DNA of 64,000 bases, taken from NCBI RefSeq assembly GCF_029223865.1, contig NZ_CP119520.1, forward strand, positions 4,154,001 through 4,218,000, written 5' to 3'. Both the position numbers and the translations under genes were made by a program. The notes under the pieces are model-generated. The model saw nothing but the letters and a program-made list of their open reading frames with translations. It was not told the DNA's origin and did not search any database. The DNA is from Telluria mixta. Its GTDB lineage: Bacteria; Pseudomonadota; Gammaproteobacteria; Burkholderiales; Burkholderiaceae_D. Shown here one piece after another: positions 8,183 through 64,000 of this stretch. Within the stretch, counting starts at the first letter, position 1, and each line of letters begins with the position of its first letter.

Positions 8183-11143
8183 ATGCAATTCACATCATCC
8201 GGTCGCTGGAAACTGCCGGGCCTGGCGCAGTCGGCGCTTGACCTGACGTTCCGGACGTTCGCCTACTATCTGATTCCGATCGCGATCGGTGTCGTCTCGA
8301 TCGTTGCCCTCGTGTGCTGGGACAGCCAGTATGTGTCGGGCAGCAGCGATGCGCGCGACATCCGCGTCCTGAAGGAAACGGCGCCGCTGAGCCCGCCCGC
8401 GGCGAACGCGCGCCTGCATGCCGCCGTCCCGGTGTCGTACTTCGACACGCATCTGTCCGAAGCTCCCGTGTGGTTCCGCTTCAGCACGCGGCCGCGTGCG
8501 ACCGGCAGCATCGTCGGCGACGTGATCGAATTCCCGTCGCGCCACGCAGTCGATATTTCCTGCTGGGACGCCGCCACCCTGCAACCGCTCGGCACCGCCA
8601 CGCGCGAGCAAAGCACACCGTATCTGCATCCTTCCAAGGCCGGCTTCGCCCTGCAGCTCACCGATCTGCCGCGCGAGATCCTGTGCCGCGGCACCTTCGC
8701 CGGCCCCGCGCGCGTCAACGTCGTGCAATGGCCGGAGACGCAATTCGACCTGTCCGTCGAGGGCTACCACCGCAAGTCGGGCCTGCTCGACGGCGGCATG
8801 ATCGTGTTGTCGCTGTTCGTCCTGATCACGGCGCTCATCAACCGCCAGCCGCTGTACGTCCTGTTCTCCGGCTGGCTGCTCCTGAACCTGCGCATCGCCG
8901 GGCTGTCGGCCGGCTGGGACATCCAGTGGCTGGGCATGACCGTGCCGCCGCAATGGATGCTGCTGGGCCGCTCGCTGACGATCGCGCTGTACGGCGTGTC
9001 CACGCTCACGCTGTACCAGGCCCTGTTCCGCGAGGAGCTCGTCAAGACGCGCTGGGCGATCCCGCTGCGCATCACGCAATGGGCGTGCATCCCGCTGCTC
9101 GTCGGTGCCGTCACCATGCCGTACGGGACGTTCCTGCCGATGCTGTGGGTCATCATGGCCTTCGGCTTCTCGCTGATGACGCTGGGCCTCGTCTCGATCA
9201 TCATCCGTTCGCGCAACCGCGTGGCGGGCTGGTTCGCGGCGTCGTTCGCGCTGACCTATGTCGCTTCGCTGGCGGAGGTCGTGTCGGCGGCGCTCGGCAT
9301 GCACCAGGTGCTGAACGTGATCAACAGCGTGACCGCGGCGCTCGCATCGAGCCTGCTGGCCGCGCTGGCCGTGGCCGAGCAGATGCGCATCGAAACGCAG
9401 AAGCGCCGCGAAGCCCAGGAAAAGCTGGAGCACGCCTACGAGGCGATGCCCGTCGGCCTGTTCACGCTCGATATGTACGGCAACATCGTGAGCGCCAACC
9501 CGGCCATGCGCAAGATGCTGGGCATCACCGAGATCGTTTCGGGACGCACGTCGTGGAAGCAGTTCTTCGCCGACAGCCTGTGGACGGAACTGCTGGAACA
9601 GGTGCACCTGCGCAGCGACGCCGAGATGCAGATCGCCAGCCGCGACGGCGCCCAGCGCTTCATGGTCAGCGCCACGCTCGCGCGCGGCCGCGTGGAAGCC
9701 GTGCTGCAGGACGTCACCGAGCAATACCAGGCCACCGAGCAACTGCGCTTCATGGCCAACAACGACCCGCTCACCAAGGTCTTCAACCGGCGCGGCATCG
9801 AAAAGATGTTCGAGGGCGCGGCCCAGCTGCTCAACGCGGGCAAGCCGCTGGCGCTGGCCTACATCGATCTCGACCGTTTTAAACTGATCAACGACCTGTT
9901 CGGCCACGCGGCCGGCGATGAAGTGCTGAAGCAGGTGTGCGAACGCATGGAGCTGACCCTCGCCGGCGGCCAGAAGATCGGGCGCGTGGGTGGCGACGAA
10001 TTCGTCATCGTCATGCCGGACACCGCGATCCCGCTGGCGTCGCTGATCTGCCGCGGCATCGTCGACCGCATCGGCGGCACGCCGTACCGCGTGGGCGACA
10101 AGGCGTTCCACGTGCGCGGCTCCGTCGGCCTGATCGAAGTGTCGCCGGGCATGCCGATGAAGGATGCCGTGTCGACCGCCGACCGCGCCTGCCGCGAGGC
10201 GAAGGACGGCCACCACGAAGGTCTCGTCGTGTACGAACGCGGCTCGAACGCGTTCCAGGAGCGTGCCAACGAACTGAACCTGGTCGCGCGCCTGTCCGGT
10301 CCCGACGCCACCGAGGGCATGTTCCTCGAGATGCAGCCGATCATGTCGCTCTCCGCGCCGTACGAATCGCTGAACTTCGAAGTGCTGCTGCGCATGCGCG
10401 AGGCGGACGGCCGCGTGGCCCCGGCCGGTCCCCTGATCGCCGCCGCCGAAAAGAGCGGACGCGCCGGCGTGATCGACCGCTGGGTGCTGTCGACCACGCT
10501 GTCGTGGATCGAGGATAACCTGGAATCGCTGACCAACACGCGCTTCGTGTGCATGAACCTGTCCGGCGCGTCGCTCAACGACGAGCGCTTCGTGCAGGAC
10601 ACGCTGGAAATCCTGGCGCGCTACACGCACGTGGCGAGCCGCCTGTGCATGGAGATCACGGAAAGCGTGGCGCTGCACGACCTGGACAACACGCGCCGCT
10701 TCATCGACCAGGTGCGCAATTTCGGCGTGAAGGTGGCGCTGGACGATTTCGGCGCGGGTTACACGTCGTTCTCGTACCTGAAGGAGCTGCCGGCGGACGT
10801 GCTCAAGATCGACGGCAACTTCATCGTCAACATCAACGCCCACCCGGCCAACGTGGCCATCGTGGAAGCGATCGTCAACCTGGCCGGCAACCTGGGCATG
10901 CGCACGATCGCGGAGTGGGCCGAGGACGCCGCCACGATCCGCACGCTGGCGGAGATCGGCGTCGACTACGTGCAGGGCTATGCTGTGGCGCGCTCGCAGC
11001 CGCCGGAAAAACTGCTGGCCGCGAGTTCATCGGCCAGCTTCATCCAGGGCGACGATGTGCTGCAGCTCGTGCGTACGCTGGGTGCGTCGGCCAACGAGCC
11101 GGAACTCCTCGGGTTTGCGCCGTACGACGAGCACCTGTTTTAA
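8183..11143 (+). CDS. Membrane GGDEF-EAL protein with 7TMR-DISM-like sensor and PAS domain
   Basis: A 986-residue c-di-GMP protein. Order: one N-terminal membrane segment (about 15-40), a periplasmic region, seven membrane segments (about 205-400), a coiled coil (EQMRIETQKRREAQEKLEHA), a PAS domain, a GGDEF domain and an EAL domain. The cyclase motif GGDEF (603-607) is intact. The inhibitory RxxD site expected just before it is absent (AGGQ at that place). The EAL signature reads EVL (733-735), while DDFGAG (854-859) and LKIDGNF are preserved. It could therefore make c-di-GMP without product inhibition and may also degrade it. The ATG at 8183 is preferred over an upstream TTG because it starts just before the first membrane segment. 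Confidence 0.9.
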   Translation: MQFTSSGRWKLPGLAQSALDLTFRTFAYYLIPIAIGVVSIVALVCWDSQYVSGSSDARDIRVLKETAPLSPPAANARLHAAVPVSYFDTHLSEAPVWFRFSTRPRATGSIVGDVIEFPSRHAVDISCWDAATLQPLGTATREQSTPYLHPSKAGFALQLTDLPREILCRGTFAGPARVNVVQWPETQFDLSVEGYHRKSGLLDGGMIVLSLFVLITALINRQPLYVLFSGWLLLNLRIAGLSAGWDIQWLGMTVPPQWMLLGRSLTIALYGVSTLTLYQALFREELVKTRWAIPLRITQWACIPLLVGAVTMPYGTFLPMLWVIMAFGFSLMTLGLVSIIIRSRNRVAGWFAASFALTYVASLAEVVSAALGMHQVLNVINSVTAALASSLLAALAVAEQMRIETQKRREAQEKLEHAYEAMPVGLFTLDMYGNIVSANPAMRKMLGITEIVSGRTSWKQFFADSLWTELLEQVHLRSDAEMQIASRDGAQRFMVSATLARGRVEAVLQDVTEQYQATEQLRFMANNDPLTKVFNRRGIEKMFEGAAQLLNAGKPLALAYIDLDRFKLINDLFGHAAGDEVLKQVCERMELTLAGGQKIGRVGGDEFVIVMPDTAIPLASLICRGIVDRIGGTPYRVGDKAFHVRGSVGLIEVSPGMPMKDAVSTADRACREAKDGHHEGLVVYERGSNAFQERANELNLVARLSGPDATEGMFLEMQPIMSLSAPYESLNFEVLLRMREADGRVAPAGPLIAAAEKSGRAGVIDRWVLSTTLSWIEDNLESLTNTRFVCMNLSGASLNDERFVQDTLEILARYTHVASRLCMEITESVALHDLDNTRRFIDQVRNFGVKVALDDFGAGYTSFSYLKELPADVLKIDGNFIVNINAHPANVAIVEAIVNLAGNLGMRTIAEWAEDAATIRTLAEIGVDYVQGYAVARSQPPEKLLAASSSASFIQGDDVLQLVRTLGASANEPELLGFAPYDEHLF

Positions 11144-61906: not shown

Positions 61907-63181
61907 TCAGGTCACGGCGCTGCGTTCGGCGCGGGTGTCGTATGCTTCGCGGTCGAGGATGTCGCGCAGGGTCTCGACGGCGTCCCACACGTCCGCGAAG
62001 CTGGTGTACAGCGGCGTGAAGCCGAAGCGCATGATCGCCGGCTCGCGGTAGTCGCCGATGACGCCGCGTGCGATCAGCGCCTGCATCACCGCGTACCCGT
62101 GCGGATGCGTGAAGCTCACCTGGCTCCCGCGCGCGGCATGCTCGCGCGGCGTGACGAGGCCCAGCGGATGCGCGGCGCAGCGGCTTTCCACCAGCGCGAT
62201 GAACAGGTCCGTCAGCGCCAGCGATTTGGCGCGCAGGGCGGCCATGGTGGTGGCCTCGAAGATCTCGAGCCCGCACTCGACGAGCGCCAGCGACACGACC
62301 GGCTGCGTGCCGCACAGCGCGCGCCCGATGCCGTCGGCGGCCTCGAACCCGTGCGACATCGCGAACGGCGCCGCATGGCTCCACCAGCCCGTGAGCGGAT
62401 GGCGGAACGCGGCCTGGTGGCGCTTGGGCACCCAGATGAAGGCGGGCGCGCCCGGCCCGCCGTTCAGGTATTTATACGTGCAGCCTACGGCGAAGTCGGC
62501 ATCGGCCCCATTCAGGTCCACCGGCACGGCGCCGGCCGAATGGGCGAGGTCCCACAGCACGAGGGCGCCGCGGGCGTGCGCGTGACGGGTCAGCGCGGCC
62601 ATGTCGTGCATGCGCCCCGTGCGGTAGTTCACGTGCGTGAGCATCAGTACGGCGCAGTCGGCGTCGACGGCCGCTTCCAGTTCTTCCGGCGTGTCGACCA
62701 GGTGGATGCGGTAGCCGCGGTCCAGCCAGCGTGCGAGACCGTCCGCCATATAGATATCGGTGGGGAAGTTGCTGCGTTCCGTGACGAGGACCTTGCGGGC
62801 CGGGTCGCGGTCGGCCTGGATCGCGAGCGCGGCGGCCAGCGCCTTGAACAGGTTCAGCGACGTCGTGTCCGTGACGACCACTTCGCCGGCCCCGGCGCCG
62901 ATCAGGGGCGCGAGGCGGTCGCCCAGGCGGCCGGGCAGGGCGAACCAGCCGGCCGTGTTCCAGCTGCGGATCAATCCCTGGCCCCACTCCTGGGCGACGA
63001 CGTCGCGTGCGCGGTCGAGGGCGGCGCGCGGGCGGGCGCCCAGCGAATTGCCGTCCAGGTAGATGACGCCCTCGGGCAGGTCGAATCGGTCGCGCAGCGG
63101 TGCGGCCGGGTCGGCGGCGTCGAGCGCGAGGCTGGCCGCGCGCGTGGTGACGGCGGCGGTGTCATACGTAGGTGGGTTCAT
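61907..63181 (-). CDS. kynU: Kynureninase
   Basis: A 424-residue PLP enzyme that splits kynurenine into anthranilate and alanine. [19 protein letters not shown] opens the fold; [18 protein letters not shown] and [17 protein letters not shown] precede the PLP-binding Lys in [16 protein letters not shown]. The formamidase KynB, needed between KynA and KynU, is not in the window. No ribosome-binding site precedes the ATG; TACACT 6 bases upstream might even give a leaderless message. It starts 39 bases from the first repeat of the flhD array, on the opposite strand. Confidence 0.95.
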
Positions 63182-63252
63182 GCGGGAAGTGTAGCCACTT
63201 TTACATCAATCGGGCGCAGAAAAAATTTTTCGAAAATTTTTGGTCCGGACCC

Positions 63253-63279
63253 TAAAGTTCTCCGGAAGGCGTCCGATAA
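63253..63279 (+). promoter_or_regulatory. Sigma-28 (FliA) promoter P1 upstream of flhD
   Basis: TAAAGTTC, 11 bases, TCCGATAA. Fourteen of 16 positions match the consensus TAAAGTTT-N11-GCCGATAA. An A/T tract ends 11 bases before it. Confidence 0.8.
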
Positions 63280-63330
63280 CCCATCCAGATACCCGGGAAA
63301 GGGTCTCGAAAAAAATTTTTGCAGGAACCC

Positions 63331-63357
63331 TAAAGTTTTCAAAAAGGCTGCCGATAA
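63331..63357 (+). promoter_or_regulatory. Sigma-28 (FliA) promoter P2 upstream of flhD
   Basis: TAAAGTTT, 11 bases, GCCGATAA. All 16 positions match the enterobacterial FliA consensus. An A/T tract ends 10 bases before it. Confidence 0.88.
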
Positions 63358-63404
63358 CCCTCTCAGATGACCGGGATTGGATCAAAAAAAGTTTGTCGAA
63401 ACCC

Positions 63405-63431
63405 TAAAGTTCGGCAAAAACGGTCCGATAA
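63405..63431 (+). promoter_or_regulatory. Sigma-28 (FliA) promoter P3 upstream of flhD
   Basis: TAAAGTTC, 11 bases, TCCGATAA; 14 of 16 positions match. Confidence 0.8.
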
Positions 63432-63480
63432 CGAGTCAGTAGGGTTGCTTGAGGGACAAAAAATTTTTTTTGAGGAACCC

Positions 63481-63507
63481 TAAAGTTCCCGAAACCGTTG
63501 ACGTAAA
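63481..63507 (+). promoter_or_regulatory. Degenerate sigma-28-like promoter P4 upstream of flhD
   Basis: TAAAGTTC, 11 bases, GACGTAAA; 12 of 16 positions match, with losses only in the -10 box. It may be inactive, or read by another holoenzyme. Confidence 0.5.
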
Positions 63508-63614
63508 CCAACACAGCAATACGTTGTTGGCGACGTCGAAGGGCAGGAAAACGCCCCGGTTGCACATCATTCTTCCGCCCCCTTTTCATAGGGGAGCCAC
63601 CACGATTCGGCAGG

Positions 63615-63629
63615 GTTTGTCAGACAAAC
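63615..63629. promoter_or_regulatory. Palindrome GTTTGTC-A-GACAAAC in the flhD leader
   Basis: A perfect palindrome with 7-base arms in the 258-base stretch between the last repeat and flhD. The rest of this stretch has no convincing ORF. It may be an operator for a flhD regulator or an RNA hairpin. Confidence 0.45.
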
Positions 63630-63765
63630 TCCTACGGATCGACTTCGTCTTTGCCGGACGAAAAATACAGACACTCTCCAATTCTCCAAAAGTTTCCTCA
63701 CAGTCAGAATCTATCTCAACGGCAACACACAACGCCTCACAGATAGATCAACCGGAGAGATGGAA

Positions 63766-64000
63766 ATGACTGCGAACGACATGATGGCTGAAATTCGTGA
63801 TGCAAACCTGAGCTACCTGATGCTGGCACAGCAGATGATCCGCGCAGACAAGGTCACCGCAATCTTCCGTCTCGGCATCTCGGCCGACATCGCCGACCTG
63901 CTCGAAGGCATGAGCAACGCCCAGATCCTGAAACTCGCCGGCGGCAACATGATGCTGGCCCGCTTCCGCTTCGACGACGCCGCGATCCTCGGCATGCTGA
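63766..64000 (+). CDS. flhD: Flagellar transcriptional activator FlhD (N-terminal part)
   Basis: The first 78 residues of FlhD: MMAEIRDANLSYLMLAQQMI, DKVTAIFRLGISADIADLL and ILKLAGGNMMLARFRFDD. With FlhC it forms the class I regulator that turns on flagellar genes, including fliA. GGAG lies 8 bases before the ATG. The gene runs off the window and flhC is expected next. Its upstream region carries four sigma-28-type promoters. Confidence 0.95.
   Translation, partial: MTANDMMAEIRDANLSYLMLAQQMIRADKVTAIFRLGISADIADLLEGMSNAQILKLAGGNMMLARFRFDDAAILGML

Follow-up and report, generated by a model that had tools for sequence, protein, structure and literature searches.

A conserved tandem array of FliA-type promoters upstream of flhD in Telluria mixta and its relatives

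The flagellar cascade is a textbook one-way hierarchy. At the end of the 64,000-nucleotide stretch of the Telluria mixta genome analysed here (the window), the master gene flhD is preceded by four boxes that resemble promoters of FliA (sigma-28), a last-tier factor. The question raised by this locus is what such boxes do in front of a first-tier gene. Judged on the sequence, it is probable that they form a tandem array of FliA class III promoters driving flhDC together with the motility and chemotaxis (mot-che) genes behind it, which would create a direct positive loop.

The boxes all lie on the + strand, between flhD and a divergent gene that we take to be kynureninase-like (Table 1). Each consists of TAAAGTT(C/T) and a -10 element separated by 11 bases. 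Compared with TAAAGTTT / GCCGATAA, boxes 1-4 match at 14/16, 16/16, 14/16 and 12/16 positions, so that both the four boxes directed at flhD and their match counts are as given in the initial annotation. The boxes are embedded in a diverged direct repeat of four 58-nt copies at spacings of 78, 74 and 76, and identity to the reference copy is 71, 60 and 72% for the other three. Tandem Repeats Finder gives no report on the array because the copies are too diverged. An A-rich or A/T tract followed by CCC stands immediately 5' of the -35 element in all four units. Box 4, with its -10 of GACGTAAA, is weak as a FliA promoter.

Table 1. Positions of the array, the leader hairpins and the flanking genes, in window coordinates
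Feature	Position	Strand	Details
Divergent upstream gene	61907..63181	-	limits the intergenic region
Repeat unit 1	63231..63288	+	A/T tract, CCC, FliA-type promoter 1 (63253-63279, TAAAGTTC-N11-TCCGATAA)
Repeat unit 2	63309..63366	+	A/T tract, CCC, FliA-type promoter 2 (63331-63357, TAAAGTTT-N11-GCCGATAA, full consensus)
Repeat unit 3	63383..63440	+	A-rich tract, CCC, FliA-type promoter 3 (63405-63431, TAAAGTTC-N11-TCCGATAA)
Repeat unit 4	63459..63516	+	A/T tract, CCC, weak FliA-type promoter 4 (63481-63507, -10 GACGTAAA)
Leader hairpin H1 (as RNA)	63577..63597	+	arms covary among relatives
Leader hairpin H2 (as RNA)	63604..63640	+	palindromic core GTTTGTC-A-GACAAAC, covarying outer stem
flhD	63760..64000	+	ATG at 63760; extends beyond window end; whole gene L017:1261-1584; PF05247, 150.5 bits

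A 27-mer pattern with up to three mismatches, a limit that places box 4 outside the test, matches three times in the window against 0.05 expected, and none of 100 shuffles reaches three. Across the whole 7,444,617-base genome, the exact pattern TAAAGTT-N13-CCGATAA also has three matches; these are boxes 1-3, and they fall inside one 179-bp stretch upstream of flhD. Allowing two mismatches genome-wide yields no excess over the reversed pattern (16 vs 21, and 45 vs 92 for a looser pattern), so only close matches are informative.

A motif scan upstream of flhD, as proposed in the initial annotation, finds the array kept in close relatives and its copy number variable. The 80 named relatives are the best 80 of 525 confirmed places by FlhD similarity and include Massilia, Telluria, Pseudoduganella, Duganella, Rugamonas, Janthinobacterium, some metagenome-assembled genomes and one record labelled Herbaspirillum. 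Over the 1200 bp upstream of flhD in these relatives and the window, up to three mismatches and spacers of 10-12 give 214 forward and 2 reverse sites, against a shuffle mean of 4.0 (five rounds). Under the same settings at least two sites are listed in 79 of the 81 regions, a few being one place counted at two spacers. With at most one mismatch, a spacer of 11 and -10 variants allowed, 4, 3, 2, 1 and 0 boxes occur in 5, 26, 46, 1 and 2 of these best 80 of 525 loci, that is, at least two boxes in 77 of 80; on the reverse strand, at one mismatch and spacer 11, none of the 80 has a box. When TMAAGTT is allowed as well, every one of the 80 carries at least one box (1, 2, 3 and 4 boxes in 1, 44, 29 and 6 loci), which is the opposite of an array missing from all close relatives, the outcome that the initial annotation had named as speaking against it.

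The geometry is equally constant. In 81 regions of 750 bp from the window and its relatives, the spacer is 11 in all 138 pairs of TAAAGTT and CCG[AT][TAC]A[AC], with spacers of 8-27 tried, and TAAAGTT alone is found 184 times in the forward direction vs twice in reverse. Common -10 forms among the named relatives are GCCGTTAC, GCCGTTAA and GCCGTAAA; outside the Massilia group the element is often GCCGTTAC, which differs at the last base. The 62 genomes of the genus contain 76 exact copies of TAAAGTT-N13-CCGATAA and none of the reversed pattern. Fifty-eight of the copies, in 34 genomes, lie within 800 bp upstream of flhD and 18 elsewhere; 9 of these 18 are, by eye, less than 20 kb from fliA, as expected of flagellar promoters. 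The exact match is absent from 24 of the 62 genomes.

A looser motif with the same spacing has ten places with at most one mismatch in the T. mixta genome, three within the array and seven elsewhere. Five of the seven stand just 5' of motility genes named by Pfam as FlgM, FlgK, flagellin, FliT and YjfB, and the other two (L013 and L016) were not linked to a flagellar gene. The FliD gene has a site with two mismatches. FliA itself is encoded in this genome (TIGR02479, 273.7 bits, G000:C1:3409293), and its main form is found in 61 of the 62 genus genomes. The marks of a FliA class III promoter that can be looked for in sequence are thus all present: the motif with its spacer, the same motif at other flagellar genes, and a FliA gene. 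Since the motif at flhD also precedes flgM, flgK, flagellin and fliT, the boxes are very probably FliA promoters, and the identity first assigned to them stands.

The sequence just upstream of the boxes is also constrained. At positions -20 to -16 before the -35 box the A/T share is 0.98 against an average of 0.48 (204 boxes), and the tract upstream of each box is possibly an UP element. Such tracts are visible before the flagellin and FliT promoters and not before those of flgM and flgK. A pair of FliA-type sites stands in tandem at the flagellin gene (L012/L142, G000:C1:3450586-3450696), 84 bp from one another; the second has two mismatches, and with their A/T tracts they resemble the flhD module.

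The T. mixta genome holds a second FliA-type sigma factor gene (L300, G000:C1:496742-497371; 224.8 bits), located beside FliL- and MotA-family genes, which suggests a second flagellar gene set. Two FliA-type genes are found at E <= 1e-60 in 52 of the 62 genus genomes. The paralogue was considered as a necessary reader of the array and rejected, because genome G019 lacks it at this threshold and yet has CCGATAA boxes.

Downstream of the array, Pfam assignments give a row of genes in the same direction: FlhD, FlhC, a methyltransferase-domain protein, MotA, MotB, one protein without a Pfam name, a response regulator that is CheY-like by its place, CheA, CheW and CheR. The methyltransferase-domain gene 3' of flhC (L017:2246-3022; PF13649, 28.9 bits) has a relative after flhC in 79 of the 80 named relatives, the top-ranked 80 among 525 places, the 80th locus stopping too early. 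The sole + strand terminator-like site in L017 1200-10000 is at 9400, inside cheR, and we infer that the row from flhD through che is one transcript. The initial annotation saw correctly that the array points into flhD and overlooked that the row continues into motAB-che. Because it does so, and because a FliA site lies before motA elsewhere, the array probably also carries the ordinary class III duty for mot-che.

Two papers describe FliA sites nearer to motA. The motAB-cheAW genes of E. coli are transcribed from a FliA site that lies within flhC (PMC4183435), and A. vinelandii has its consensus FliA sequence in the interval from flhC to motA, as well as a putative RpoD promoter for flhDC (PMC2885672). 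Both species resemble T. mixta in having a FliA site in the flhDC-motAB neighbourhood that serves mot-che; their site is within or 3' of flhC and leaves flhDC untranscribed, whereas those in the window are upstream of flhD.

For a survey of where sites stand at flhD and motA, flhD-to-motA regions were also taken from further genera of this family and from members of other families in the order. In all, 147 loci were scored by one rule (TMAAGTT-N13-CCGWHAM, one mismatch), and three pairs proved to be the same DNA (L258/L123, L276/L099 and L277/L084), leaving 144 distinct loci. Sites occur at flhD only in 91, at motA only in 16, at both in 8 and at neither in 22, while motA was not seen in 7; the loci are related, so these counts are of non-independent events. 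Half of the 'neither' loci (11/22) belong to the family of the window. As background, the reverse strand of the 147 flhD regions gives 3 matches and that of the 140 motA regions none. Genus g13 of the same family has flhD sites in 0/16 and motA sites in 10/16 loci, and genus g27 has them in 5/9 and 7/9, with both in 3. At one mismatch or fewer, flhD sites are also absent from the single sampled loci of g10, g12, g24, g34, g35 and g38. Together with g13, these loci indicate that the loop would be dispensable.

In T. mixta itself, a two-mismatch form, TCAAGCTAATCTAGTTCCCTACGTAAA, is present 96 bp before motA. The notion that the motA site is wholly absent from this genome was therefore rejected, and since the degenerate form remains, mot-che may keep a weak class III start of its own. 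By eye, the same stretch would also fit a sigma-70 promoter.

A tree built with FastTree from the FlhD, FlhC and MotA of 91 loci, in which deep nodes are weakly supported, gathers most flhD-only loci in one crown group, along with L276 and L073, which have both sites, and L275, which has neither. Genera g27, g29 and g21, where both sites occur, branch outside this group, and flhD sites are found in the neighbouring families f23, f24 and f33 as well. The simplest story is an ancestor with both sites, after which the motA site decayed and the flhD copies multiplied in the crown group, while g13 lost its flhD site. Because deep support is weak, the direction of this shift is one that we infer. 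The likeliest reading is a transfer of class III control over mot-che to a position ahead of flhDC, giving a direct FlhDC-FliA positive loop.

Between the array and the gene, about 120-185 bases 5' of flhD, is a leader element with two hairpins, H1 and H2. Two tests, neither of which takes account of ancestry, support their pairing. In an arm-swap test on all 81 leaders (unique arm pairs only, 2000 permutations), own pairing scores -11.70 for H2 against a best permuted mean of -9.52, and -9.71 for H1 against -8.34 for the best permuted. A third candidate, H3, is unsupported (-4.61 vs -4.78 permuted) and was dropped. For H2, in a hand-chosen, register-consistent subset of 27 sequences, 97.9% of cells are paired and two-sided changes number 23, where shuffles give 7.9 +/- 1.8 (0/500 as high); further pair types in this subset are not above shuffles (269/500). 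Compensatory changes beyond the controls, as looked for in a structured cis-regulatory leader, are thus seen in both H1 and H2. Given 56 leaders out of 81, aligned with MAFFT, RNAalifold predicts the inner 8-bp stem alone; on our reading, the outer arms change register from genus to genus. The transcript predicted to start at 63514 has a fold z of -3.14, with 1/200 shuffles as good. In five loci from Pseudoduganella, Duganella and Massilia (L077, L092, L093, L108 and L125), the H2 core is swapped for a stem TGTAGGA ... TCCTAC and the conserved 3' strand is kept.

A covariance model of H2 was searched against 64 sources, namely the window plus all region loci but L247, L250 and L252 (63 of 66), with none of the 80 named loci included. 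Sixteen of these sources have a match in the flhD leader at E <= 0.001; they come from g1 (the window), g39, g23, g15, g29, g33, g27, g14 and family f24. One match, in L287 (E 2.5e-5), is to a locus without flhD sites at one mismatch or fewer; in g13 the model hits the same place with E values of 0.06-0.6, near chance, in 6 of the 13 loci given. Presence in L287, and weakly in g13, makes the element look like a general leader feature, and our working view is that it belongs to flhD leaders in general and that FliA transcripts would contain it too. Searches of the T. mixta genome with the H2 model return no other confident copy, Rfam 15 has no match at E <= 1 in window positions 62900-64000, and the scan for + strand terminator-like sites finds none after the element. 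H1 and H2 are possibly a cis-regulatory RNA or, for H2 with its near-perfect DNA palindrome, a protein operator. The initial annotation had considered an RNA made from the long flhD leader; a conserved structured element is indeed there, and the evidence from L287 and, weakly, g13 does not make it specific to FliA.

In the proposed mechanism, each repeat unit would act as a module of A/T tract and FliA class III promoter. FliA-RNA polymerase would start at the array and read flhD-flhC-methyltransferase-motA-motB-che, and the class III promoter kept before motA elsewhere would in this branch have weakened or gone, its job having moved ahead of flhDC. FliA, a sigma factor of the last tier, would thereby act on flhDC in the first. 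In E. coli, transcription of fliA needs FlhDC; assuming the same for T. mixta, the loop would be direct and positive. After completion of the hook and export of FlgM, freed FliA would raise flhDC along with the motor and chemotaxis genes, and the loop FlhDC -> FliA -> FlhDC would keep committed cells committed. It may also be bistable, as the initial annotation suggested. Probably, then, the late flagellar stage keeps the first stage running in the Massilia group.

A separate means of starting flhDC before FliA exists would also be required. The locus does not have the enterobacterial class I arrangement, in which flhDC is served by sigma-70 only and has no upstream sigma-28 promoter, as FliA-type sites are present upstream. 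A sigma-70 scan of the + strand of L017 600-3300 finds no consensus site upstream of flhD. In the Massilia group box 4 merges, by eye, into a conserved stretch like GTTGACGTAAACCAACACA (window 63498-63516). TTGACG in this part of unit 4 may be the -35 element of a sigma-70 promoter that overlaps the weak FliA box.

FliA feedback on flhDC, suggested in the initial annotation, remains the best reading of a conserved array that points at flhD, and it is not unheard of. Going by its title, a 2005 paper by Clarke and Sperandio (Mol Microbiol 57:1734) reportedly concerns FliA control of flhDC in EHEC, named together with QseBC, so the principle would already be known. The two cases would be alike in that transcription of the flagellar master operon responds to FliA. 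EHEC, however, is one pathovar with QseBC named, whereas the Massilia group has a tandem array conserved across genera, mostly of 2-4 promoters, ahead of a row that runs into mot-che. Three features appear to be new: that the array is conserved and multi-copy, that it stands ahead of mot-che, and that it swaps with the motA promoter. Titles and the beginnings of abstracts in the open-licence literature gave no account, for this family, of FliA promoters ahead of flhDC.

Positive feedback on flagellar genes, as proposed for the array, has precedents. A FliZ positive loop on flhDC with bimodal expression is reported in Xenorhabdus (PMC3814329) and a bistable motility switch in Salmonella (PMC4173784). 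The Xenorhabdus loop runs through FliZ, whereas in T. mixta the sigma factor itself would transcribe flhDC.

The strongest competing explanation accepts the promoters and doubts the loop. The array could in effect be a class III promoter for mot-che, with flhDC as a passenger, FlhDC limited after translation and no meaningful feedback. This would suit the tendency of flhD and motA sites to replace each other, as well as the shared gene row with no terminator-like site before cheR. A promoter close to motA, however, would do this more simply, and relatives use one; it is at flhD that copies have multiplied (mostly 2-4) and that the closest-to-consensus sites of the genome lie. Such multiplication of near-consensus copies suggests selection on flhDC output itself, and we consider a mere passenger role for flhDC rather unlikely. 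It is less probable still that the FliA transcript matters mainly as RNA, its 250-500 base leader with two hairpins serving as a riboregulator or a source of small RNA. The compensatory changes and the fold z score fit this idea, and sigma-28-dependent, UTR-derived small RNAs that act on flagella biosynthesis are reported in E. coli (PMC10578931). Those RNAs are reportedly made by FliA, whereas the T. mixta leader is a predicted structured element with no Rfam match; the element also occurs in L287 without flhD sites and near chance in 6/13 g13 loci, and no + strand terminator-like site follows it.

Two further explanations take the boxes as binding sites first of all, and we give both very little credence. 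According to one, they do bind FliA polymerase but chiefly titrate free FliA, delaying other class III genes. Several copies of the genome's closest consensus sites are indeed gathered here, and FliA titration by E. coli intragenic sites without clear transcription is discussed in PMC4183435. A sponge, however, would have no need of A/T tracts, which are kept, or of boxes facing flhD in one direction, as the strand counts of TAAAGTT reveal. According to the other, the repeats are sites of an unrelated regulator and resemble sigma-28 promoters by accident. Spaced multi-copy repeats with conserved flanks (AACCC) do look like operator arrays, and the -10 half differs between genera, but the T. 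mixta genome has the same bipartite motif with spacer 11 ahead of flgM, flgK, flagellin and fliT, and the motif's presence at flhD tends to swap with FliA-type sites at motA. The preferred reading is thus still the FliA class III array driving flhDC and mot-che.

A bolder version is possible, and we lean slightly against it. The branch containing Massilia, Duganella, Pseudoduganella, Rugamonas and Janthinobacterium may have rewired its cascade by moving class III promoters from motA to an array at flhDC, fusing the first and last tiers in one operon and one loop gated by FlgM export. Commitment would then be all-or-none and checked against assembly, with copy number tuning the gain and a new structured leader setting the amount of FlhD.

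If the FliA loop is true, a widespread case of a last-tier sigma factor feeding the master operon would depart from the textbook one-way cascade. The conserved leader hairpins would be an additional control point of flhD. Arrangements with the site at motA only, at both genes and at flhD only coexist in related lineages. With copy numbers from 1 to 4 among related species, the group would be a natural setting in which to study feedback gain and heterogeneity between cells.
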